Shown: positions 2,746 through 23,513 of the stretch, one piece after another
How positions within the stretch are numbered: the stretch's first letter is position 1
How the letters are laid out: each line of letters begins with the position of its first letter
Origin: a virus
Virus record (IMG/VR): IMGVR_UViG_3300031227_000438
Span: 1 to 23,513 of that record
Length of the DNA stretch: 23,513 bases
Strand: one strand, 5' to 3'
Position numbers and translations under genes: made by a program
Notes under the pieces: model-generated
The model's input: the letters and a program-made list of their open reading frames with translations, nothing else
Database searches by the model: none
Told to the model about the DNA's origin: nothing

Positions 2746-2982
2746 ATGGCAGACACTGTTGAACGTAGGTGGATAATTCTTTTACGAGAAGGACAAGCTC
2801 CCGAAGTAAAGAGACCTGTGAATACGTATCGAGGAATGTGGGAGATGCTAGAAGAAATTTATCGTTTGTATCCTACAATAAAGGTTCTTTCTGTGGAGGT
2901 GACTTGGGATGGTCAACTCTGGGTATGTGATGGGAAAGAGAAGTTAAAATCTGAGGGAAACGATGTTCCAGAAATTCTTTAA
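2746..2982 (+). CDS. Hypothetical protein (78 aa)
   Basis: A reading frame from ATG 2746 preceded by GGAGAG. The product starts with a beta-rich stretch (RRWIILLREG), has a helix (GMWEMLEEIYRLYP) and ends with another strand pair (VLSVEVTWDGQLWVC). It looks like a small alpha/beta domain, but I do not recognise the family. Its end overlaps the start of a tiny membrane-protein gene by 20 bases. Confidence 0.65.
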   Translation: MADTVERRWIILLREGQAPEVKRPVNTYRGMWEMLEEIYRLYPTIKVLSVEVTWDGQLWVCDGKEKLKSEGNDVPEIL

Positions 2983-3055
2983 AGGTGTTGATTGGTGGCT
3001 TTGGTCAATAGCAATTTTGGTGGCCATAATATTTTATCTTACGAGAGGAAAATGA
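2963..3055 (+). CDS. Tiny single-pass membrane protein (30 aa)
   Basis: ATG 2963 to TGA 3053-3055, preceded by GAGGG seven bases upstream, inside the end of the previous gene. The product begins with a basic amphipathic end (MFQKFFKGVD), then one hydrophobic helix (WWLWSIAILVAIIFYL), then a basic tail (TRGK). This is a plausible one-span inner-membrane peptide. It stops one base before the next gene's ATG, consistent with coupled translation. Function unknown. Confidence 0.5.
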   Translation: MFQKFFKGVDWWLWSIAILVAIIFYLTRGK

Positions 3056-3056
3056 T

Positions 3057-4190
3057 ATGTATGAAATTAAAGTTCAAGGTGAGTTTGACGCAGCTCATTT
3101 TCTTGAAGGTACAAATACTCAATGTGATAATTTACATGGTCATCGTTGGGTTGTTTGGGTAACTTTACAATCAGAAAATCTTTCTCCTACTGGTTGGGTG
3201 ATAAATTTTTCTGTGGTTAAGAAATGGTTGAAGGATATTCTAGAGAGGTTTGATCATAACGTATTAAATTATTACTTGGATCAACCTACGGCAGAAAATC
3301 TTTGTTATGTTATTTATCGGCACATTCATTCAAAACTTATTGAATACAATGTGGATAGGGAAATGCGAGCTTGTTTAAACTGTGATGTTCCTTTTGAATC
3401 CAGTGTTTGGGAGAAAAAGAAGTTTCATTCTAAAAAATGTGCAAATATATATTCAGGAAAGAACAGAAAAAAGAAAAATATAAAGCCTAATTCAAAGATT
3501 ATTTCAGATGTTCCTATAAAGATGGATGTTGAGCTTAAGAAAATAGAGATAGCAGAGACTCCGGGTAACATCGCTGCTTATTCTTGTTCTGATGTTGATG
3601 TTAGGCATGAATCTTTAAAAAGAGGGCGGAGAAAGTTTTTTCAGGATTCCGAGAAGAGTGCACCATTAAGAAAAAAGATGAGTAAAGATAGCCGGGCACG
3701 CTGGGCTGATCCTGAAAAAAGGCAGGAAATGGTGGAAAAGATACTGGAAGCAAATCAAGATCCTGAACAAAGAAGAAAAAAAAGCGAGCGGATGCTGCTA
3801 AATAATCCTATGAAGAATCGCAGGAATGTAGAAAAGATGATCGCTTCATTAAGAAAGTCGCAGAAACTTTCACCTAATAAAGAGGAACAAAAAATTATTG
3901 AATTTATGAAAAAAAATACTCTTGCATTTTTATTCGTGGGTGATGGTAGTTATATTGTTGACGGGAAAATTCCTGATTTTATAAACAAAAGCAAAAGAAT
4001 AGTAGTAGAATATAATAATAGATTTTGGCATTGTAATGACAATCCTTGGTACGATGTTAAGGATGATAGTGAGGAAAGAAGAAAGTTTTTTGAAGAAAGA
4101 GGGTATAAATTTTATATCATTTGGAACGACGAGTTTGAGATGGATAAAGAGAAGATTAAAGTTGAATTGAAAAGATTGTTGGAGGATTAA
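3057..4190 (+). CDS. queD: QueD-like 6-carboxy-tetrahydropterin synthase fused to a Vsr-like homing nuclease
   Basis: A 377-residue composite. Residues 1-100 are QueD: zinc ligands His14, His27 and His29, catalytic-type Cys23 in CDNLHGH, and FDHNVLN and QPTAENL. The end of QueD (VELKKIEIAETPGNIAAY) appears only at residues 158-175, because about 57 residues holding a zinc ribbon (CLNC ... KKC) interrupt it. After residue 180 come basic repeats with RARWADPEKRQ, then a PD-(D/E)XK domain of the Vsr/EDxHD homing type (KIPDFIN, IVVEYNNRFWHC, FFEERGYKFYIIWNDE). QueD makes 6-carboxytetrahydropterin on the way to preQ0/queuosine; in phages this path can serve DNA or tRNA modification. No other preQ0 gene is in the window. 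Whether the interrupted enzyme folds is uncertain. AGAGG precedes ATG 3057. Confidence 0.85.
   Translation: MYEIKVQGEFDAAHFLEGTNTQCDNLHGHRWVVWVTLQSENLSPTGWVINFSVVKKWLKDILERFDHNVLNYYLDQPTAENLCYVIYRHIHSKLIEYNVDREMRACLNCDVPFESSVWEKKKFHSKKCANIYSGKNRKKKNIKPNSKIISDVPIKMDVELKKIEIAETPGNIAAYSCSDVDVRHESLKRGRRKFFQDSEKSAPLRKKMSKDSRARWADPEKRQEMVEKILEANQDPEQRRKKSERMLLNNPMKNRRNVEKMIASLRKSQKLSPNKEEQKIIEFMKKNTLAFLFVGDGSYIVDGKIPDFINKSKRIVVEYNNRFWHCNDNPWYDVKDDSEERRKFFEERGYKFYIIWNDEFEMDKEKIKVELKRLLED
3357..3527 (+). mobile_element. 57-codon zinc-ribbon insertion inside queD
   Basis: The QueD sequence reads through naturally if residues about 101-157 are removed: EYNVD joins VELKKIEIAETPGN. The extra 171 bp are in frame and encode a basic zinc ribbon (ACLNCDVPFE, KKFHSKKCANIYSGKN). 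The segment is flanked by TGGAT at 3352-3356 and 3523-3527, which could be a short target duplication or chance. It has no Cys/Ser start or His-Asn end, so it is not an intein. Exact borders are inferred from the expected QueD reading. Confidence 0.55.
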
Positions 4191-4472
4191 ATGGATACTT
4201 TCATTCAAATACTTGATGTGACTGCTGCGATTTTGATTATTCTAGCTTTAAATTTGGTTAGGAGGCATTATAGATGGTGGTTGTTTTACTCTGCAACGAA
4301 TATTATCTTTTCTGTGGTTACTATTTATAAAGGGCTTTGGGGGCTTACTATTATGGGGTTTGTACTTTGTATAACAGCTATACAAAACTATCGTAATGGG
4401 AAGAAGAAAGAAATGATTGATGCCAAATTGAGAAGCCTCGTTTCGTATGGGATAGCAAAGGAGCAATTATGA
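4191..4472 (+). CDS. Small membrane protein, possibly PnuC-like
   Basis: A 93-residue protein starting at ATG 4191, directly after the previous stop, with GGAGG five bases upstream. It has three hydrophobic segments: about residues 8-22 (LDVTAAILIILALN), 28-45 (WWLFYSATNIIFSVVTI) and 50-65 (LWGLTIMGFVLCITAI), followed by a basic tail (QNYRNGKKK). The pattern of W..Y...N, IYKGLW and QNYRNG is reminiscent of PnuC nicotinamide-riboside transporters, but it is far shorter than a full PnuC and may only resemble one by composition. Confidence 0.65.
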   Translation: MDTFIQILDVTAAILIILALNLVRRHYRWWLFYSATNIIFSVVTIYKGLWGLTIMGFVLCITAIQNYRNGKKKEMIDAKLRSLVSYGIAKEQL

Positions 4473-4840
4473 GCACTACATGTAAAACACCCTGGCATAA
4501 CAAAAAAGGCAGGTTACAATTTCCGTATCAGATGTTGGGAGATTTAGTTTTTATTTGGCCGGATCCCCCTCCCAAGAAGTTAGGAAAAGAGGGCTTAATA
4601 CATCTTCCGGAGCAGCTTAGGAAAAAGTATCATAATGGTATTGGGACTATCTTATCTATAGGTCCGGGATATATGGATCTTAAGGGGAAGTATCATTCTA
4701 CTCCAAAGGTGTTGCAACCAGGAATTCAGGTATTATTCGACATTAGCGTCCCTTGGGGTTTGCATTGTACTGGACTTGATAGAAAGAAATATTATGTTGT
4801 TCTTTGTGGGGCGCGGGATATTTTTGGAATAGTAAGTTAG
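4469..4840 (+). CDS. Divergent GroES-like co-chaperonin
   Basis: A 123-residue protein with the Cpn10 beta-barrel pattern: GDLVFIWPDPPPKK near residue 24, a mobile-loop-like segment GKEGLIHLPEQLRKK near 39, GTILSIGPGYMD at 59, LQPGIQVLFD at 82, and a closing strand CGARDIFGIV. It is longer than GroES (about 95 residues) because of an N-terminal extension. T4 gp31 is a phage precedent for a divergent GroES that helps the host chaperonin fold the capsid protein; that role is inference here. A second, canonical GroES lies at 10996. AAGGAG precedes ATG 4469, which overlaps the previous gene's stop. Confidence 0.75.
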   Translation: MSTTCKTPWHNKKGRLQFPYQMLGDLVFIWPDPPPKKLGKEGLIHLPEQLRKKYHNGIGTILSIGPGYMDLKGKYHSTPKVLQPGIQVLFDISVPWGLHCTGLDRKKYYVVLCGARDIFGIVS

Positions 4841-5659: not shown

Positions 5660-7080
5660 TAGTAGATGTTAAATTACATATAGATACCCTTGAATGCCGC
5701 CCTAGTTTGAGGCTCTATCGTGGCACTGTAAACAGTTCCTGGGCATGGAACAGTCAACCACATTTTAAAGGTAGTTTAACTGATCGAGGGGAAGACGGAT
5801 TCTATTACAGCTCCAATGTAGTAGATACGCACAATCCTAATACACAGGGAGGCTTAAAGCCATGTATGTGTATGTAGTCAATAAAAGTGGAACTCCTTTG
5901 ATGCCCTGTAAACCAGCAAAAGCTAAGCATCTTCTTAAGGCTGATAGGGCAAAGGTGCTCAGGAGAACCCCATTTACAATTAAACTTTTGTGGGACTGTG
6001 AAGAAAGTGTTCAGGAAGTTGTGGCCGGAATGGATACTGGAACTAAGACTATTGGTTGTGCTGCTACTGCAAATGGAAAAGTTATTTATCAATCAGAGAT
6101 CAGTGTTAGACAGGATGTTTCTAGAAAAATGATGCGGCGTAGGATGTACCGTACTGCCCGTAGAGGAAGAAAACTAAGGTATAGAAAACCAAGATGGCAG
6201 AATAGAGCTTCGATGAGAAGAAAGGATAGGTTAGCTCCAAGTATTAAATCTAAGGTAGATTCACATTTGAAGGAAAAGAAATTCGTTGAATCTATTTTAC
6301 CGGTATCAAAATGGATAGTAGAATTAGCTTCTTTTGATATTCATAAGATAAGTAATCCCAATGTTTTCGGGTTAGATTATCAAAATGGAGCATTGAAAGG
6401 TTTTTATAATGTGAAAGCATATGTTTTACATAGAGATAATTACCAATGTCAGAAGTGTAGAACTAAGAAGGGTAAACTTCATGTTCATCATATTATATTT
6501 AAAAGTAATGGAGGAACGGATACGCCATCAAATTTAATTACTTTATGTATAGATTGTCATGATAAACTTCATAAGGGTGAATTTGAAATCAGAGGAGTTA
6601 GATCAAAAACTAAACATGCCACTGAAATAGGAATTGTAAAATCCCAACTAAAGAAACAATTTGGAAAATTTGAAGAAACTTTTGGATATGAAACTAAGTT
6701 CAAACGGGAGCAAATTTTACAATTATTAAAAACTCATTATAATGATGCAGTGGCTATTTGTTCTGAAGGAGAAATACCAATATTTTTAGATTTTATTTTG
6801 ATTAAGAAGTGTGTTCCCAAGGGAGTTTACAAACAAACTAGAGGTCGTAGAAGTGAGCAGAAAGTACAAACAGGGAAAGTATTTGGATTTAAACGGTTTG
6901 ATAAGGTCAGATATCAAGAGAATATTTATTTTATACAAGGTAGGAGTGGAGCGTATGCAGTATTAAGTGATGTATTGGGAAATAATGTTGGATTTTTAAA
7001 TCCTAAGTGTCCTAAATTTGAAAAGATGGAAAGGTTAAGTTCAAGAAAATCTTGGATTATGCAAGAAGTGGTGGTAGATG
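5660..7080 (+). mobile_element. IscB/omegaRNA unit inserted at the terL start (boundaries inferred)
   Basis: The RNA scaffold and iscB together form a compact unit lying exactly between the presumed small-terminase gene and terL. GTAGATG occurs at both edges (5662-5668 and 7074-7080), which might mark the insertion site; a 7-base match can also arise by chance. No terminal hairpins typical of IS200/IS605 ends or transposase gene were recognised, so if mobile it probably moves like a homing element or by a transposase supplied elsewhere. Confidence 0.45.
5690..5861 (+). ncRNA. omegaRNA / HEARO RNA of the IscB system
   Basis: The bases just before iscB have the look of a HEARO (omega) RNA, the guide RNA that IscB uses. 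Visible elements include CTAGTTTGAGGCTCTATCG (5702-5720), a GTTCC/GGAAC hairpin with loop TGGGCAT (5735-5751), a conserved-looking GATCGAGGGGAAGACGG block, and a terminal GGCT-TAA-AGCC hairpin (5851-5861) directly against the iscB ATG. AGGGAGG at 5846-5852 also serves as the iscB ribosome site. The 5' end is approximate; the guide should be the 15-20 bases just upstream of the conserved scaffold. An overlapping 73-codon frame (5656-5877) is best seen as a by-product of this RNA. Confidence 0.75.
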
Positions 7081-7085
7081 CATAA
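5862..7085 (+). CDS. iscB: IscB RNA-guided nuclease (RuvC-HNH)
   Basis: A 407-residue IscB, the OMEGA-family nuclease related to the ancestor of Cas9, which cuts DNA guided by omegaRNA. Order of domains: PLMP motif (residues 12-15) within the N-terminal PLMP domain; RuvC-I GMDTGTKTIG with Asp58; arginine-rich bridge helix about 88-112; RuvC-II WIVELASFD with Glu154; HNH about 194-240 with YQCQKC, HVHHI (His209/210), Asn224 and CIDCH; RuvC-III HYNDAVAI with Asp295; and a C-terminal region with GRRSEQKVQTGKVFGF, likely contacting RNA and the target-adjacent motif. All catalytic residues are intact, so it is probably active. No TnpA transposase is nearby. Its stop overlaps the terL start. Confidence 0.93.
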   Translation: MYVYVVNKSGTPLMPCKPAKAKHLLKADRAKVLRRTPFTIKLLWDCEESVQEVVAGMDTGTKTIGCAATANGKVIYQSEISVRQDVSRKMMRRRMYRTARRGRKLRYRKPRWQNRASMRRKDRLAPSIKSKVDSHLKEKKFVESILPVSKWIVELASFDIHKISNPNVFGLDYQNGALKGFYNVKAYVLHRDNYQCQKCRTKKGKLHVHHIIFKSNGGTDTPSNLITLCIDCHDKLHKGEFEIRGVRSKTKHATEIGIVKSQLKKQFGKFEETFGYETKFKREQILQLLKTHYNDAVAICSEGEIPIFLDFILIKKCVPKGVYKQTRGRRSEQKVQTGKVFGFKRFDKVRYQENIYFIQGRSGAYAVLSDVLGNNVGFLNPKCPKFEKMERLSSRKSWIMQEVVVDA

Positions 7086-10000
7086 AAAAAATAACCAAAA
7101 AATACGAATGGAAGCACTGTTGACTGCTGCATATGGTACCGACTATATAGAAGCCCCAGTTTCAATGCGCAGGTTTCTGACAGACTCAGATTATCTTGGA
7201 GCCAGCCTTCGCGGCAGGGGCGGAGAGCCCGGAGCTGCAGTATACCCGGTTTGGCATAAGGTTTTGGGCGAGCTTTCTAATCTACCAGAAAAGAACCTTC
7301 CCATATTTACCGGAGCGATTGGTTGTTTAGGTCCGGATGTTAAAGTAAGTTTATTAGATGGTCGTGAGTTGACTATTCCTGAGGTGATAGAGGAGAGAAA
7401 AGCGGGAAAGCAGCACTGGGTATACTCCTATGATATTGCAAGAAAGAAAGTAGTTCCGGGTAGGGCGGTTGATGCTATGTTATCTGGAAAGAAAGTAGCT
7501 AAGATTGTTGAAATAGAGTTGGATAATGGTGAAAAAGTGAGATGTACTCATAATCATCCATTTTTGTTAACATCTAATAAATACAGAAAGGCGGAAGAAT
7601 TAAAGTCTGGTGATTCATTGATGCCCTTGTATAGGGAGAAAGGTAGCCATGGTTATGAGTTGATGGGAGCGGCAAATCAGCAATGGCGGCCAACTTTTAG
7701 GGCTGTTGCTGAAGAAATTTACGGGCCTATTCCAAAAGGGAGTTGTGTACATCATCATCCTGAAGGAGGTAAAGATAATAATTCGCCTGAGAATCTTAAA
7801 GTTATGACTTCTGAAGAACATATAAGACTTCATTCTGTTGAGTTGAATCCTTTTAAGAATATTCCTGGTTTAGCTTCAGAGTGTGCTAAGAAGTCAAATG
7901 ATATTCGTTGGAATGGTCCGGGCAATAAACAACAAAGGAAAGAGGCCAGTGATCGCCTTAAGAAAAGGAATAAAGAGGTGGGGCAAAATAAGAAAGCAAG
8001 TGATAGGCGTTGGCAAGGGCCTAGAAATAAACAACAAAGGGAAGCAGAGAGTGGTCGACTTAAGAAAAGAAATAAAGAAACAGGACAAAATATTAAGGCA
8101 TCTAAGATTCGATGGTCAAAGCCTGGGGCAGGGGAACATCATAGTAAGAAGATGAAAGAATCCTGGGCCAGTAGGAAGAACCTTATAGAAATTAGAACCT
8201 GTGCTGCTCCAGGATGTGATATCACCTTTGAATGTAAGGTAAATAGTAAGAGGAAGTATTGCTGCTCGGGTCATTCTGGAAAGGGTGGGAAGAAACGTAA
8301 TCATAAGGTAGTTAGTGTTAGATATCTTACTGAGAAAATTGATGTTTATGATTTATCAATAGAGAAGTATCACAATTTCGCTCTAACATCCGGTGTTTTT
8401 GTTCATAATACAGGAAAAACAACAGCGGCAATTTTAGGTATTATTAGGGTAATGCACGTTATTTTGTGCCTCCGCGACCCTTGGTCTTATTTTGGAAAGA
8501 CTGCTGCAGGTAAGATGGCAATAGTGTTCTTCAATCTTACTCAGTCGCTTGGTGCTTCTCGAGGATTTGGTCTTCTTCAAAGTTATCTTTTGCAATCTCC
8601 GTGGTTTAAGGAAAGAGGTAGGGAATGCGGATCAGGTCAAAATCCAAGAATAGAATTTCCTATTTTTGAATATGTTTCTGGTTCTCCTTATTCCCGAGGG
8701 TTTGGGGTGCAGGGCCACGATATTATCGCCGCATTGATGGATGAAGTTGATGCTCCTTCAGAGTCAGATAAACAAAGAATTCGAGTTCTTAGGGCTTTTG
8801 AGGCTGGGTATAGGCGATTTGAAAATAGATTTGTTATTAGATCTCAAGTGGATGATAGAAGGTTGACTTTAGGGAAGTTTTTCTTAGTTGCATCTAAGCA
8901 AGAGACGTTATCATTCTTGAATACCTTTGTAGCAAAGATGAAGAGTTCACCCAATGTTTATATTGTGGATATACCTGTTTGGGAAGCAAAGGAAGCTGCA
9001 GAGTATTGTGGTATTAAATTTCCGATGATGCTGGGAAATATATATGTGCCATCTAAAATTCTTGGTCAAGAGGTCGGCAATACTTTTGAACCCGACCAGG
9101 CAGCACTAGATGTAGCAGTTAAGGATGGTTTTCAGATTCTTTGGGTTCCAATAGAGTATTTAGAGGCTTTTCAAAGGGATTCTGTAGGGGCATTACGAGA
9201 TTACGCGGGAATATCAATAGCTGGACTTAGGAAAAGTAAGTTGTTTCCTTCTGAAAAGTTGATAGTAGATTGTTATGATTCTACTAAAAGAGATCCGGTT
9301 AGTATGCTAACAATTGAAACCGGATTGCACGATGATGTAAATTTTGCTGAGTATTTAGATTTTAGTGCTATTCGAGTTCCCAGACATGTTCCTAGGTATA
9401 TTCATGTTGATATAGCCTGGAGCAATAAATCTGGTAGTGGGGATTGTTTGGGCATTGCTATGTCTTGTATTAGTGGTTGGGTAGACAGAACCGTTGAGGA
9501 TTTGGAAGAGGGTGGATTGATGCGGGTAGAGAAGGCTCCTGTAGTAGAGACAGATTTTGTTATGCGGATAATAGGGCGTCCCGGAGATCAAATTCCATTA
9601 AATAAAATTAGAAAATTTATTATAGATCTTAAGAAGGTATATAGTTTTAATGTTGTGTTAGCTACTTATGATCTTGATTCAGCAAGCAGAGATTCCAAGC
9701 AAATACTACAAAGAGTAGGGATTAATTGTCCAGATAAAGGTCTTTCATTAGATAGAAATCCTCAAATTTATCGAGGTTTTAGAGATTTAGTGCACGATAA
9801 ACGTTGGTGTTGTCATAGGAATGAATATTTGCATTTTGAGTTAGCTAATCTTGAGGATGATCCTGATAAGAATAAGGTAGATCATCCTGATGAGGTAGTA
9901 GATTTAGTGATTTTAGAGAATGGTGAATCAGAAGATAAAGTTATAAAGGGAAGTAAAGATTCGGCAGATGCCGTTGCAGGTTCCGTTGAGAATGCCCTCG

Positions 10001-10995: not shown

Positions 10996-11289
10996 ATGAA
11001 TTTAAAGTTACAGATATTGGCGGATAGGGTGCTTGTTCAACGGCTTTCGGCAAAAGCAACCACTCCGGGAGGCATACTTTTACCCGAGGCTGCTAAAGAA
11101 AAATCACAGAGAGCTAAAGTTATAGGTGTAGGTGAAGGTAAATTACTCGATGATGGAAGTATACGAAAATTAACTGTGAGAGTAGGCGATATAGTTTTAC
11201 TTCCTGGACCTGTTGGAACAAAAGTAATGATAGACGGTGAAAAGTATTTGATCATGTGTGAGGCGGATATTTTAGCGATAGAAAAATAG
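10996..11289 (+). CDS. groES: GroES co-chaperonin (Cpn10)
   Basis: A 97-residue canonical GroES: DRVLVQRLSAKATTPGGILLPE with the mobile loop GGILLP (residues 25-30), then AKVIGVGEGKLL, VRVGDIVLLPGPVGTKV and a closing ILAIEK. GroES caps the GroEL barrel; phages use it to tune the host chaperonin for their own proteins. No GroEL is present in the window, so it would work with host GroEL or one encoded elsewhere. AAGGAGAG precedes ATG 10996. It differs strongly from the GroES-like protein at 4469, so they are not recent duplicates. Confidence 0.93.
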   Translation: MNLKLQILADRVLVQRLSAKATTPGGILLPEAAKEKSQRAKVIGVGEGKLLDDGSIRKLTVRVGDIVLLPGPVGTKVMIDGEKYLIMCEADILAIEK

Positions 11290-15377: not shown

Positions 15378-15462
15378 GGCCTTGTGGCGGAACTAGGCAG
15401 ACGTATCAGATTTAAGTTTCGATTCTCTTCGGGGAGTGAGGGTTCGATTCCCTCTGAGGCCA
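15378..15462 (+). tRNA. tRNA-Leu (UAA)
   Basis: A class II tRNA with long variable arm. The acceptor GGCCTTG pairs with TGAGGCC allowing G-T pairs; D-arm GCG...CGT; the anticodon loop TTTAAGT has TAA; the variable hairpin is CTC-TTCG-GGG; T-arm GAGGG-TTCGATT-CCCTC is perfect. One A-C mismatch lies in the anticodon stem. CCA is not encoded. It may help the phage read TTA/TTG codons, which are frequent here. Confidence 0.85.
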
Positions 15463-15465
15463 TTG

Positions 15466-15487
15466 GGTGACTGTAACGGTGACTGTA
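15466..15487 (+). repeat. 12-bp tandem repeat at the tRNA-His 5' end
   Basis: GGTGACTGTA occurs at 15466-15475 and again at 15478-15487, where it is the start of tRNA-His, giving a 12-base period. The first copy fills the gap after tRNA-Leu. It may reflect slippage or a duplicated tRNA end. Confidence 0.75.
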
Positions 15488-15551
15488 GCTCAATTGGTTA
15501 GAGCACCGGACTGTGAATCCGGAGGCGGGAGTTCGAATCTCCTCAGTCACC
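15478..15551 (+). tRNA. tRNA-His (GUG)
   Basis: A cloverleaf with acceptor GTGACTG/CAGTCAC, D-arm with AATTGGTTAGAGC, anticodon stem CCGGA/TCCGG with loop CTGTGAA (GTG anticodon), and T-arm GGGAG-TTCGAAT-CTCCT. The extra 5' G at 15478 opposite C73 at 15551 is the histidine identity pair. The following bases are CA, so CCA is not fully encoded unless the end is redefined. Confidence 0.93.
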
Positions 15552-15570
15552 CATTTATAAGGGGAATAAA

Positions 15571-16894: not shown

Positions 16895-17507
16895 AGAAGT
16901 TTTTGTAGACGAGTTGGCAGGTATTCAAGACAATGATATAATGTCATTTGTATTAGATGTTTTCGATGACTTATGCCCAGAATACTTTTGGACTTGTCCC
17001 GCCAGCTTAACAGGAAAGTACCATCCAGCTGTTTCAATAGGTAAGGGTGGACTGGTGAGGCATACCAAGTTGGCTGTATGGTGGGGTGAAAAATTGATCC
17101 GGGCGTTCAATACTTTTGAGGAGCTAAAAGGTATTCCAGAGGCTCAGTTAAAAGATGAAGTGACTGCGGCATTGCTGATGCACGATATGCATAAGAATGG
17201 ACCAACAGATGCCTCTTATAAAAAATGTGGAAACACGACGGGTGTTCACGGTACACAGTTGGCTGAGGTGATAGAGGCTAAAAAGTTGGGTTTGTATCTA
17301 CCTGAGTCTACAAGGCAGAGGATTCTTGTGGGGGTAGCCTCACACATGGGTCAGTGGACAACTGATGCTGCTTTTAGGCCTAGTAATCTAAAAGGTGAAG
17401 AGCAGGCGTTTGCTCAGTTAGTCCATGCAGCTGATTATTGTGCGAGCAGGAAGGTAGATGAGAAACTTAATTTATTGAGTACGGCAAAGAGGGATGGGAG
17501 AATATGA
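16884..17507 (+). CDS. HD-domain phosphohydrolase
   Basis: A 207-residue HD-superfamily protein. Metal ligands fit: His60 (GGLVRHTKLAVWWGE), His100-Asp101 (LLMHDMHK), His122 (VHGTQLAE), His154 (SHMGQW) and Asp184 (LVHAADYCASRK). Such proteins cleave nucleotides or cyclic nucleotides, or remove phosphate; no further domain reveals the substrate. The pattern resembles HD proteins of phages that act on nucleotides or second messengers. AAGGAAG precedes ATG 16884. Its TGA overlaps the kdsA ATG (ATGA), so the two are translated together. Confidence 0.82.
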   Translation: MKAEEVFVDELAGIQDNDIMSFVLDVFDDLCPEYFWTCPASLTGKYHPAVSIGKGGLVRHTKLAVWWGEKLIRAFNTFEELKGIPEAQLKDEVTAALLMHDMHKNGPTDASYKKCGNTTGVHGTQLAEVIEAKKLGLYLPESTRQRILVGVASHMGQWTTDAAFRPSNLKGEEQAFAQLVHAADYCASRKVDEKLNLLSTAKRDGRI

Positions 17508-18310
17508 GCTTTAAGATCGGACAAATTGTAGTGGGGCTACATGAACCTTTCTTTGTAATTGCGGGACCTTGTGTGATTGAAAGTGAGGAGATTTGTCTGG
17601 ATATTGCAAAGAGACTTGTTAGGATAAGTGAAAAGACAGGCGTCCCTATAATCTTTAAGGCAAGTTTTGACAAAGCTAATCGTTCACATCTGCGTAGTTT
17701 TAGAGGACCAGGTTTACATAAGGGATTAGCTATCCTTAAAGCAGTTCGAAAGGCTACTGGTTTACCTGTCTTAACTGATGTGCATGAGGTTTATCAAGCC
17801 GAGATAGCAGCCAGGGTTGTTGATGTTTTACAGATACCTGCTTTCTTATGTCGACAAACAGATTTGTTAGTTGCTTGTGCTAAAACTAGGCTACCTGTAA
17901 ATGTGAAGAAGGGACAATTTCTTGCTCCTACTGAAGTGGAGAATGTGGTAAATAAAATTAGAGGCCATCATCACAATATCCTGATTACAGAGAGAGGCAC
18001 ATGTTTTGGTTATAATCGACTCATCAATGATATGGCGGCAATTACAAAGATGAAGAGTATAGGTTATCCTGTTATTTTTGATGCTACTCATAGTATTCAA
18101 AGGCCAGGTTTGGTTTATGGTAGTCATCATATGGAAGCTATATATTTGGCCCGAGCAGCAGTAGCAGCAGGAGCAAATGGTTTGTTCCTTGAAGTTCATC
18201 CAACTCCAAGTGAGTCGAAATCAGATGCAGCTACTATAATGCCAATAGAATGGGTAGAAGATTTGTTGATAAGGTGTAAGAAGATACACGAGATAGTGAG
18301 AGCACAATGA
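17504..18310 (+). CDS. kdsA: 3-deoxy-D-manno-octulosonate 8-phosphate synthase
   Basis: A 268-residue KdsA, essentially full length. It condenses phosphoenolpyruvate with arabinose 5-phosphate to Kdo 8-phosphate, the first committed step of Kdo, the core sugar of lipopolysaccharide. Diagnostic stretches are VIAGPCVIES (Cys23, typical of the metal-dependent class), FKASFDKANRS, LTDVHE, IPAFLCRQTDLL, VNVKKGQFLAP, ERGTCFGYN, IFDATHSIQRPG and GLFLEVHPTPSESKSD. The catalytic and substrate-binding parts are intact. Start overlaps the HD gene, end overlaps the next gene by four bases. A bacterial enzyme embedded between phage genes points to capture from a host. Confidence 0.93.
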   Translation: MSFKIGQIVVGLHEPFFVIAGPCVIESEEICLDIAKRLVRISEKTGVPIIFKASFDKANRSHLRSFRGPGLHKGLAILKAVRKATGLPVLTDVHEVYQAEIAARVVDVLQIPAFLCRQTDLLVACAKTRLPVNVKKGQFLAPTEVENVVNKIRGHHHNILITERGTCFGYNRLINDMAAITKMKSIGYPVIFDATHSIQRPGLVYGSHHMEAIYLARAAVAAGANGLFLEVHPTPSESKSDAATIMPIEWVEDLLIRCKKIHEIVRAQ

Positions 18311-19505: not shown

Positions 19506-22500
19506 GTGGAAAATCCGTTCTCGCAATTAAATAATTTATACAATAAACCTGAGATGCTCCCTGGAGAGGTCACACAGGTAGATCATTTATCTCCAGAGGA
19601 TAAAACACTTCTTCACAGGATAGGTCTTACTTCGGTTCAAGTACAACGCGATCTCCTTGCGGATTCTCAGATATTTTTTGATAGATATAACCTATACCAC
19701 CAGGTTGAGAAGTGTTTGCGAGGCGATACTAAGATAAGACTTCTTGATGGTTCAACTCCTACTATTAAGGAGATAGCAGATAGTCCTGATGAATATATCG
19801 GAAAGTATACTTTTAGTATTAATCCTGATACATTGGAGCTAGAACCCGATAAGATAATTTCAGCGGGGAAAACCCGTAGGGGTGCGCAGTTGGTTCGGGT
19901 ATATCTTGATACTAATGAGCATGTCGACTGTACACCAGATCATAGATTTATGCTGAGAGATGGAACCTACCGAGAGGCTCAATATCTTAAAGCAGAAGAT
20001 AGTTTAATGCCATTGTATCTTAAGTATCCGAGAGGTCCTCTTAAGGATTATTTACTGGTGTATAGGCCTAAAACCGATTCCTATTCTTTTGTTCATCGGA
20101 TAGTAGCAAAATTTCTCGATTCTACTTATAAAACTAGTCAAGGTAGGGTACCACACCATGTAGATTTTGATAAGTTGAATAACGATCCCTCTAATATTCA
20201 GGTAATGGATTCAACTGAGCATAAGAGATTCCATGGAAGTATTTGTAGAAAGAAACACAAACCTGATTGTAACTGTGGATCTTGTAGAGCTGGACGGGGT
20301 GAAAATAAGGGTAAGAACAATCCGTGTTACGGCAAACGCCCATGGAATTATGGGTTGACTAAAGAAACGGATCTTCGAATAGCTAAGATTTCTAAGAATT
20401 CAAATACGCAGGTTAAGAAAATATGCCAGGAATGTGGTATAGAGTTTCTTGCCTATTGTTATAGAGCAGAAGATATTAAGTATTGTTCAAATAAATGTGC
20501 TAATATAGCACAGGCAAAAGATCCTGTTGCTATAGAAAATCATAGAAGAGCTCGCGAGAGGGTAGCCGAAAAGGGACCTTCTCAAAAACAACTTGAACAC
20601 CTAAAGAAAGTTCATATAAAGAATACAAAATCAAAAGAGATACGAATTTGTCAATTTGAAGATTGTGATATTACTTTTGAAGTATCTCCTAGCAGTAAGA
20701 GGAAGTACTGCAGTAGGTTATGTGCAAATAAGGATATTGCAAAAAACAAAGACGCACAACAAAAACATAGTATCACTCAATCTAAAATGTGGGAGAATGA
20801 AGAGTATCGAAAAACTCAAGTGGAGAAGATACAAGCAGGAAGGCGGGAGAAAAATGAGGAAAGAAAATCTCAGTTAGCAGAGTGTCTTTTAAATCACAAG
20901 GTTGTGGAAGTGAAATTTTTACAAGAAAGAGAAGACACTTATGATATAACTACGGAGAAAAATCATAACTTTTCATTAAATGTAGGAATATTTGTTCATA
21001 ATAGTTTAGAGCATCCAATTGTTGGGGCAGCAACTGAGTTGTATGCGAACTATTGTTGTCTTACTGGAGATACTAAGATACCTCTTTTAGATGGTAGAAC
21101 ACTAACTATTAGAGAGATTTTAGATGAACATAGGGCGGGAGAAGAGAACTGGGTTTACTCTTGTGATAACAAAGGGAAGCCTCAACCTGCTAAGATCGTA
21201 AATGCAGTTAAACAAAAGCATACACCCAAGACTTTTCGAGTGTGGTTAGATAACGGGAAGTACGTGGATGCCAGTGATAACCACAAATTTGTAAAGAGAG
21301 ATGGGATTTTATGCAGAGCAGATGAGTTGGTAGTTGGTGATTCATTGATGCCACTATATAGAGCTACATCTAAGACTGGTCAACTATTAGTTTGGGATGT
21401 AAATGAATGGGAATGGGAACCTATCCATAAGGCATCTAAGCCTATACCGAATCAAACTGGTAAACGGCGAGAATTTTATTACTATCATAAAATAACAAAG
21501 ATAGAGTGTATTGGAGAACAAGAAGTTTATGATATAGAAGTAACTGGCAGTCATTTGTTTGGCTTAGATGTTGGTATTTATATTTCAAATACAGTTTTCT
21601 CGCCTATGCACAATGCCACAATCTGGATAACAAGTGAGAGTCCAACATACCAAAAGGAACTTACAAAATTATTAGATAGAATAGGTATTGAAGAGAAGAT
21701 ATTTGATTGGGCGTTTACGACGGGTTCATACGGAGATATGTTTGTAAAGGTGAATGGGATACCCGGGAAGGGCGTTATAGCTATAGATGATTCTGATCAC
21801 CCAATAAATATAAGTAGGGTAGATCATGAAGGAGTTTTGATAGGATATTATAAGACACCGGTAGGTCAATCTGGTGATCAGCAAAGATTAATGGCTCCAT
21901 GGGAGTACGTACATTTCAGATTGTTGGGAGGTAAGAAACAAAGACCACAGGCGGGCGATCAAAACTATGCAGAATATAGGACTGTTCATCTATTGACAGG
22001 TTTAAGATCAAAGCAGGTGACGACTAGATATGGTACATCTGTTATAATGAATGCTCTGGCTATTTATAAGAGGTTGAGGTTAGCAGAAGATAGTTTGTTG
22101 ATTGCCAGGTTGAGTAGAGGGCTCATTCGTTATGTTTGGAAACTCAAAGTGGACTCGTGTCTAAAAAATGATACTGAAATAGCTCTAATGGATGGAACAA
22201 ATCCGACTATTGGAGAGATGGCAGAAAACTCTGAGAAATATATTGGCAAATATGTTCTTACAGTTAATGAGAAGACAAGAAACTTAGAACCCAAGCAAAT
22301 TAAGAATGTAAAGAAGACCCGTCTTAACGCTCAGTTAGTAAAAGTACGTATAGACGAGAGAGGGAATCCAGAAGGTAAATCAGTTTCCTGTACTCCTGAT
22401 CATAAATTTATGTTAAGGGATGGAACGTATAAGGAGGCTCAGTATTTACAGCCTGGTGATTCTTTAATGCCCCACTATCATTGTTTGACTGGAAAAGAAC

Positions 22501-23513
22501 AGGATATAATTGAAGGTTATAGATTGGTATATGATCCAGGAGATGACGAGTATCGTCGAGAACACAGAGTAGCCGTTGGACCATTGAAGAAAGGTCAGAT
22601 TGTTCATCATAAAGATTTTGATAAGTTGAATAACGATCCTTCTAACCTTAAGGTTTTTGAGTCTCAAAGTGAACATGTTAGGTATCATCATGAACACAAT
22701 GAGAAGTATGGCTTCGCCATTAGTATGCCAGGAAAAAATAAATCCCAGGAGCATCTTGATAATATTGTTAAAGCAAGAAAAAGTAATGGTAAGCCCTGGC
22801 ACAGTGAAAAAACTAAGAAGGTGATGGGTGAAGTAAGAACTATAAAGATTGCTTCTGGAGAAATACTTCCTTCAATGACAGGTAAACATCATTCTGAGGA
22901 ATCTAATGAAAAGAACAGGCAAAGTCATTTAGGTATTACAAAAGAGGCTAACCCTAATTTGATTCAAAGTGAAGAAGCAAAGGATAAGAAGAGGGGTTCA
23001 AATAATTCCAATTGGGTTCCTTTAGAAACAAGAATTTGTGAATGCGGCTGTGAAGAAACATTTGAATGTAAGGTAAATAGCAAACAAAGATTTATTTACG
23101 GTCACAGTAATCGAGGTAGTTGTAACCCAAATAGCTCTGAAAGAAAAGAAGCTCAACTAACAGAATGTCTATTAAATCATAAAGTTATCTCTGTTGAGTG
23201 GCTAGAAGAAAGAGAAGACACCTACGACATTGAAATAGATGGTACTCCGAACTTCCCACTTACTGCCGGGGTATTTGTTCATAATTCAAATATGGAAGCA
23301 GTGGGAGAACTCATAGATCAATACAGTAGAGTGTTAAGAGAAGCTCGCAGTATGGATACGAGGGAAGGGAGTCCAAATTTTAATTCTAAGGAAAATCCCA
23401 TGGCATCCATCGAAGACATATTCATCCCGGTTTGGGACAACGTCGGCGATCTTACATTTGATAAGATAGGTGGAGAAACAGATATTAGATGGATTAGGGA
23501 TATTGAAGACTTA
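19506..23513 (+). CDS. T4 gp20-type portal protein with three inteins (3' end beyond the window)
   Basis: One open frame starts at GTG 19506, with GGAG five bases before, and continues for 1336 codons to the window end with no stop. Removing three inteins leaves 352 residues: MENPFSQLNNLYNKPEMLPG as N-terminus, SLEHPIVGAATELYANYC, TVFSPMHNATIWITSESPTY, EYVHFRLLGGKK, RYGTSVIMNALAIYKRLRL, SRGLIRYVWKLKVDS and SNMEAVGELIDQ, then MASIEDIFIPVWDN and TDIRWIRDIEDL. This order fits T4 gp20-like portals, the dodecameric ring through which TerL pumps DNA. The extein joins are smooth at all three sites. Portal and TerL are separated by about 9 kb of accessory genes. Confidence 0.9.
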   Translation, partial: MENPFSQLNNLYNKPEMLPGEVTQVDHLSPEDKTLLHRIGLTSVQVQRDLLADSQIFFDRYNLYHQVEKCLRGDTKIRLLDGSTPTIKEIADSPDEYIGKYTFSINPDTLELEPDKIISAGKTRRGAQLVRVYLDTNEHVDCTPDHRFMLRDGTYREAQYLKAEDSLMPLYLKYPRGPLKDYLLVYRPKTDSYSFVHRIVAKFLDSTYKTSQGRVPHHVDFDKLNNDPSNIQVMDSTEHKRFHGSICRKKHKPDCNCGSCRAGRGENKGKNNPCYGKRPWNYGLTKETDLRIAKISKNSNTQVKKICQECGIEFLAYCYRAEDIKYCSNKCANIAQAKDPVAIENHRRARERVAEKGPSQKQLEHLKKVHIKNTKSKEIRICQFEDCDITFEVSPSSKRKYCSRLCANKDIAKNKDAQQKHSITQSKMWENEEYRKTQVEKIQAGRREKNEERKSQLAECLLNHKVVEVKFLQEREDTYDITTEKNHNFSLNVGIFVHNSLEHPIVGAATELYANYCCLTGDTKIPLLDGRTLTIREILDEHRAGEENWVYSCDNKGKPQPAKIVNAVKQKHTPKTFRVWLDNGKYVDASDNHKFVKRDGILCRADELVVGDSLMPLYRATSKTGQLLVWDVNEWEWEPIHKASKPIPNQTGKRREFYYYHKITKIECIGEQEVYDIEVTGSHLFGLDVGIYISNTVFSPMHNATIWITSESPTYQKELTKLLDRIGIEEKIFDWAFTTGSYGDMFVKVNGIPGKGVIAIDDSDHPINISRVDHEGVLIGYYKTPVGQSGDQQRLMAPWEYVHFRLLGGKKQRPQAGDQNYAEYRTVHLLTGLRSKQVTTRYGTSVIMNALAIYKRLRLAEDSLLIARLSRGLIRYVWKLKVDSCLKNDTEIALMDGTNPTIGEMAENSEKYIGKYVLTVNEKTRNLEPKQIKNVKKTRLNAQLVKVRIDERGNPEGKSVSCTPDHKFMLRDGTYKEAQYLQPGDSLMPHYHCLTGKEQDIIEGYRLVYDPGDDEYRREHRVAVGPLKKGQIVHHKDFDKLNNDPSNLKVFESQSEHVRYHHEHNEKYGFAISMPGKNKSQEHLDNIVKARKSNGKPWHSEKTKKVMGEVRTIKIASGEILPSMTGKHHSEESNEKNRQSHLGITKEANPNLIQSEEAKDKKRGSNNSNWVPLETRICECGCEETFECKVNSKQRFIYGHSNRGSCNPNSSERKEAQLTECLLNHKVISVEWLEEREDTYDIEIDGTPNFPLTAGVFVHNSNMEAVGELIDQYSRVLREARSMDTREGSPNFNSKENPMASIEDIFIPVWDNVGDLTFDKIGGETDIRWIRDIEDL
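19713..21002 (+). mobile_element. Portal intein 1 (430 residues, HNH plus zinc ribbons)
   Basis: Begins at Cys (CLRGDTKIRLLDG), has block B CTPDHRFML, a C-terminal EREDTYDI ... FVHN, then Ser as +1. The endonuclease part has an HNH-like VPHHVDFDKLNNDPSNIQVM, a Cys-rich segment (CNCGSC), a NUMOD3-like NNPCYGKRPWNYGLTK, and two zinc ribbons (CQECGIEF ... YCSNKCAN and CQFEDCDITFE ... YCSRLCAN). Size fits a full homing intein. Confidence 0.92.
21057..21590 (+). mobile_element. Portal intein 2 (178-residue mini-intein)
   Basis: Starts at Cys (CLTGDTKIPLLDG), has ILDEHRAGEENWVYSCD, a variant block B (ASDNHKF), GDSLMPLY, and a C-terminal EVYDIEVTGSHLFGL, ending YISN before Thr. No endonuclease domain is present. 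The penultimate residue is Ser, not His, which is unusual. The start is close to that of the TerL intein. Confidence 0.88.
22158..23285 (+). mobile_element. Portal intein 3 (376 residues, HNH)
   Basis: Begins at Cys (CLKNDTEIALMDG), has block B CTPDHKFML, an HNH-like IVHHKDFDKLNNDPSNLKVF, NUMOD-like and zinc-ribbon parts (CECGCEETFECKVNSKQRF), and ends EREDTYDIEI ... FVHN before Ser. It resembles intein 1 over both splicing halves and the HNH region, and is probably its paralog. Confidence 0.92.

Follow-up and report, generated by a model that had tools for sequence, protein, structure and literature searches.

The open reading frame at positions 3057–4190 (+) of a viral contig encodes a QueD-like enzyme that is interrupted near its C terminus and then continues into a nuclease. 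This raises the question of whether the locus is a gene in decay or a working enzyme that houses a selfish element. The DNA analyzed (the window) comprises the 23,513 bases of an IMG/VR virus record, i.e., one metagenomic contig, and provides a single instance of the fusion.

Architecture of the QueD–nuclease frame

The frame runs uninterrupted from the ATG at 3057 to the stop codon at 4188–4190 (377 codons), which bears out the claim of the initial annotation that QueD is joined to a homing nuclease without a stop. Along the protein, QueD residues 1–98 (3057–3350) are followed by an insert of ~57 residues (residues 99–156, 3351–3524, with ends uncertain by a few codons), the last β hairpin of QueD (residues 157–176, 3525–3584), and a C-terminal portion (residues 177–377) made up of a helical segment and the nuclease. 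An assembly artefact is unlikely to have produced this 377-codon frame, since the frame is open across four segments and the flanking gene order is conserved, so that several in-frame joins would have been required. The QueD part and the nuclease part were aligned and modelled apart because the QueD C terminus was misplaced when both protein families were put into one MAFFT alignment.

Residues 3–94 matched the QueD/PTPS family (PF01242, 4e-27), and the TIGR03367 QueD model scored 93.1 bits, above its curated cut-off (89.25), which places the protein within the family. We aligned 50 phage QueDs (the fusion and 49 others) and found that residues ~99–156 lie opposite a gap in all 49 other rows, bar a few residues at the ends, while ELKKIEIAETPGNIAAY (residues 157–176) aligns with the last two strands of the other QueDs; the C-terminal ETPGN motif is thus indeed displaced by a 57-residue insert, as had been proposed. 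All 16 residues invariant in this alignment are kept in the fusion (M1, H14, L16, C23, H27, G28, H29, G46, F51, D66, H67, N71, T78, A79, E80, and E167). The first QueD part, comprising β strands 1–2 and two helices, carries the three zinc-binding histidines (H14, H27, and H29) and the catalytic Cys, Asp, and His (C23, D66, and H67). The invariant E167, which we take to be the pterin-binding Glu of the family, lies beyond the insert in the final hairpin, together with N171, A173, and Y175 (each at least 90% conserved).

The predicted structure agrees with this picture. AlphaFold, supplied with the QueD alignment, gave pLDDT values of 91–98 at residues 1–100 and 90–96 at residues 160–179, with both last strands (159–168 and 171–176) in place. 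The top Foldseek matches of the model were solved QueD/PTPS structures (including 2oba and 2dj6), as expected of the PTPS/T-fold, with 2oba superimposing at an rmsd of 1.5 and a TM score of 0.87 on the target. The insert occupies a surface loop between helix α2 and the last hairpin; loop length at this point varies slightly within the family. The initial annotation had described QueD as broken by a zinc ribbon; the enzyme is interrupted but not visibly broken, as judged by the 16 invariant residues, the curated model, and the predicted fold. Since every conserved QueD residue is still present, the QueD of the fusion looks like a working enzyme that hosts a selfish gene without splicing.

The insert contains a finger-like motif of the form C-x2-C...H-x3-C (C106, C109, H124, and C128; module at 3357–3470, +). 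The finger region was poorly modelled (pLDDT 49–71) and gave weak FYVE/treble-clef Pfam matches. However, local alignment with the zinc-finger modules of the TerL and portal inteins of the same contig yielded scores of 68–73 versus shuffled means of 30–32 (sd 4–5), and this homology supports the proposed zinc ribbon. As the intein fingers are its closest sequence match, the finger may be an independent insertion. By-eye comparison of the insert ends revealed TGGAT as the sole shared string, no more than expected by chance.

Downstream of the hairpin, the helical repeats (ARWADPEKR..., NQDPEQRR...; 3660–3870, +) were recovered by a repeat search, are all helix in the model, and resemble segments in the free-standing nucleases L103–L105. 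The repeats are probably a DNA-binding linker of the homing nuclease; together with the zinc finger assigned by homology, they are a candidate for the extended DNA-binding region that Vsr-like/EDxHD homing endonucleases have next to the nuclease. The nuclease domain itself (3873–4187, +) was aligned with 17 relatives, which revealed six invariant columns (D307, E318, W324, H325, Y350, and W356). The best PDB match of its profile was I-Bth0305I (3r3p, 9e-5), followed by Vsr, and its predicted core (pLDDT mostly >90) matched 3r3p with a Z score of 11.2 and Vsr with 10.5; Foldseek also ranked I-Bth0305I best. Together, the nuclease fold and the conserved acidic and His residues assign the domain to the Vsr-like/EDxHD class, of which I-Bth0305I is an example among homing endonucleases (PMC3943268). 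Profile and fold therefore confirm the Vsr-like homing nuclease named in the initial annotation, while its PD-(D/E)XK label is corrected to Vsr-like/EDxHD homing endonucleases.

Among viral contigs, neither the full-length protein nor its nuclease part had a close relative, and the nuclease profile, run against GTDB contigs, gave one distant match, in a Nitrosarchaeum MAG. In the sister phage L093, the nearest nuclease relative (1382–2171) is visibly frameshifted and lies among other genes, i.e., it is a decayed counterpart. Most free-standing nuclease homologues carry zinc-finger-like motifs N-terminal of the repeats and nuclease in one chain (e.g., L086, L087, L103–L105, and L160). Given this usual pairing, enzyme and nuclease appear interleaved in the fusion (A-B-A-B), and its finger and nuclease plausibly belong to one nuclease, with the QueD hairpin lodged between them. 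Free-standing relatives such as L087 begin M-x(4)-C-x2-C; in the fusion, a possible internal ATG (M103; 3363–3365, +) with AGGG just upstream precedes the finger, and M103 could start the nuclease alone.

Distribution and origin of the fused gene

We recovered 92 QueD homologues (107–148 aa each; the viral ones from the best 80 of 158 viral QueD loci, the cellular ones from one archaeal phylum only), and none of the 92 carried the insert or a nuclease fusion; accordingly, no second queD–nuclease fusion was found in this sample. A similar loop as a normal feature of the family, the circumstance that would have undone the initial reading, was looked for in the same 92 proteins and was absent. 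DNA patterns designed for the QueD of the window gave no match. The long archaeal PTPS frames inspected as possible fusions had N-terminal extensions or other loops and no zinc-finger insert, and one archaeal PTPS N-terminal domain compared with the nuclease showed no kinship to it. One such archaeal PTPS (L174, archaeal genome G053) has a long N-terminal domain that fits no recognised family, and frames of similar length turn up in several genomes of the same archaeal phylum.

Searches with TerL identified six related phage types (L092, L093, L095, L097, L098, and L099), all six of which carry a plain queD in the corresponding position of a shared gene order (ATPase–phosphoribosyltransferase–queD–GroES-like–dn4880–terL). 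The ATPase, phosphoribosyltransferase, GroES-like, dn4880, and TerL proteins of the contig are 72–85% identical to those of L092 and L093, whereas its QueD is only 29–33% identical to theirs; the QueDs of four compared relatives are 52–69% identical among themselves. In the QueD tree, the sequences of the six syntenic phages group together in one clade (92/92), with the fusion QueD outside it on a long branch. The gene that follows, encoding a small membrane protein (4191–4472, +), begins at the first base after the fusion stop and is 57–59% identical to its counterparts in L095 and L097 and 39–44% to those in L092 and L093, the reverse of the affinity of all other neighbors.

Because queD is far more divergent than its neighbors and the next gene switches affinity, these comparisons suggest that recombination, as in homing, introduced queD–nuclease in a single tract that probably also took in the membrane protein gene. 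A discordant gene after the fusion is what would be expected of co-conversion of flanks during the repair of homing breaks, as described for phage homing endonucleases (PMC2988022). Ordinary recombination is an alternative source of such a tract. Rapid divergence in place is also possible, since an AU test did not reject a grouping of the fusion QueD with its syntenic relatives (p 0.06–0.09), although the tree disfavors it.

Several other genes on the contig are of interest in their own right. In L092 and L093 the ATPase gene directly adjoins the phosphoribosyltransferase gene, but on this contig an HNH homing endonuclease gene (780–1577, +) is inserted between the two. An RRXRR-HNH protein (5862–7085, +) matching the NCBIfam model for IscB, an RNA-guided nuclease (330.5 bits vs a cut-off of 175), is encoded between dn4880 and terL, which overlap in L092. 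TerL contains one intein (7342–8409, +) and the portal frame (19506–23513, +) three, several of them with HNH and zinc-finger modules; the TerL of L092 has a mini-intein at the same site, and that of L093 an intein-like insert at another. The contig also carries two GroES-like genes (4469–4840, + and 10996–11289, +), two tRNA genes (Leu, taa, 15378–15462, +; His, gtg, 15479–15552, +), and a phage KdsA (3-deoxy-8-phosphooctulonate synthase; 17504–18310, +) that scored above curated cut-offs and suggests a Gram-negative host.

Known systems and competing explanations

Several known systems share features with this arrangement. In fungal mitochondria, a LAGLIDADG homing endonuclease is fused in frame to rps3 (PMC12308204, citing Sethuraman et al. 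2009). As far as the account in PMC12308204 goes, that nuclease likewise sits in frame at the C-terminal coding end and does not rely on removal, but nuclease class, genome, and host gene all differ, and a nuclease-type DNA-binding module inside the host fold is not described there. The WHO elements of yeast FBA1 (PMC7282813) also home without splicing, encode a nuclease with a zinc finger, and supply the end of the host gene; however, they form a separate gene downstream of FBA1 that is followed by an FBA1 fragment, whereas the queD fusion is one frame, and no such 3′ fragment of the host gene was seen downstream of the nuclease, where the next gene starts right after the stop. I-Bth0305I (3r3p; PMC3943268) shares the nuclease fold, the key residues, and probably the layout of an elongated DNA-binding region with a C-terminal nuclease, but it is intron-encoded, while the nuclease described here is joined to an enzyme whose last hairpin separates zinc finger and nuclease. 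Phage genes split by homing endonucleases, i.e., by mobE in Aeh1 nrdA and mobA in T4 gene 60, provide precedents for the invasion of a metabolic phage gene that functions without splicing, as shown for nrdA (PMC2988022). In those cases the host gene yields two polypeptides; the queD fusion is one chain, and its single 377-codon frame is not a fractured gene with the host gene in separate frames. The TerL and portal inteins of the same contig place a related zinc-finger module, with HNH, inside an essential gene, but they have splicing domains and the queD fusion frame has none. A limited literature search found no host enzyme interleaved with a nuclease in one chain.

Against this background, we consider it rather probable that a homing endonuclease is interleaved in frame with queD, yielding an active QueD and a homing nuclease that spreads by break repair. 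The main competing account keeps the same function without ancestral interleaving and invokes two independent events. In one, an intein-type nuclease of this phage donated a zinc finger to the QueD loop; in the other, loss of the stop codon joined a Vsr-like nuclease gene to the C terminus. Such a history would explain why the best match of the finger is to the intein fingers of the contig, and it has a precedent for the second event in the C-terminal in-frame fusion to rps3, as outlined in PMC12308204. Nevertheless, related nucleases commonly bear their own N-terminal zinc-finger-like motif, which makes one event the simpler source of the pairing, and two rare events within one gene are less likely; we therefore regard this account as fairly unlikely, if worth retaining. 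The initial annotation had also offered gene decay; on this view, queD has lost or is losing its function and the fusion is a transient remnant of nuclease insertion. Interruption of the host gene, the long QueD branch, and the decay of nuclease genes in sister phages (L093) are in keeping with it. Yet stops, frameshifts, and losses of catalytic residues are all absent from the 377 codons, the 16 invariant residues are kept, the curated QueD cut-off is passed, and the nuclease residues are intact too, which leaves decay unsupported and, in our estimation, improbable. The opposite proposal, an invader that leaves the enzyme functional within a fusion, agrees with the intact catalytic residues, frame, and predicted fold and the seat of the insert in a surface loop.

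Loss of enzyme function could take another form, with the QueD fold serving as a scaffold (e.g., a multimer) for a DNA-cutting protein. Many PTPS-fold proteins are multimeric, and the long QueD branch would suit this idea, but a scaffold has no need of the zinc ligands, the catalytic Cys, Asp, and His, or the pterin-binding Glu, and the fusion retains every one of these residues, so we hold the idea to be very unlikely. Least credible of all, despite the four inteins in the same phage, is that the insert is removed as a splicing element (an intron or an intein remnant). Neither positions 2900–4400 nor the whole window had an Rfam match, including to a ribozyme core of a group I or II intron; the scan that detected the inteins of TerL and portal found no intein splicing domain in the frame at 3057–4190; at 171–174 nt, the insert falls short of the size of a typical group I intron or intein; and it does not include the nuclease. 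Excision of 171 bases from the transcript, raised earlier, is not needed, because the insert is open and in frame.

A proposed interleaving of enzyme and homing nuclease

Under the interleaved arrangement that we favor, the chain would read QueD(1–98)–zinc finger–QueD(157–176)–helical repeats–nuclease. A normal QueD domain would fold around the finger, which would loop out between helix α2 and the last hairpin, and the repeats and Vsr-like nuclease would hang off the QueD C terminus. QueD would stay active, with neither RNA nor protein splicing needed. The same polypeptide, and perhaps a shorter product from M103, would bind DNA through finger and repeats, the nuclease would cut the allele without the element, and the queD–nuclease unit would spread by break repair, bringing its own queD and neighboring sequence. 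More tentatively, the finger seated in the QueD loop and the last QueD strands seated in the nuclease linker may make one chain of enzyme and nuclease that replaces sensitive queD alleles together with their flanks, a specific version of the proposal that we offer as possible.

As for the role of the enzyme, the presence of QueC and/or radical-SAM genes in some distant related phage records suggests that the enzyme may belong to a preQ0 pathway that modifies DNA, and this gene content is compatible with the phage pathway described previously (PMC6884629). FolE and TGT families were not found in the related phage records, which may be fragments.

As a rule, homing endonucleases leave the host gene functional because they are spliced out (introns and inteins), lie between genes, or break the gene into pieces that assemble again. 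A single chain in which enzyme and homing nuclease interleave would add another way, akin to the rps3 fusions and WHO elements though more closely knit. If the interleaving is true, it also carries a warning for annotation, namely that a phage "QueD" can be a selfish element.
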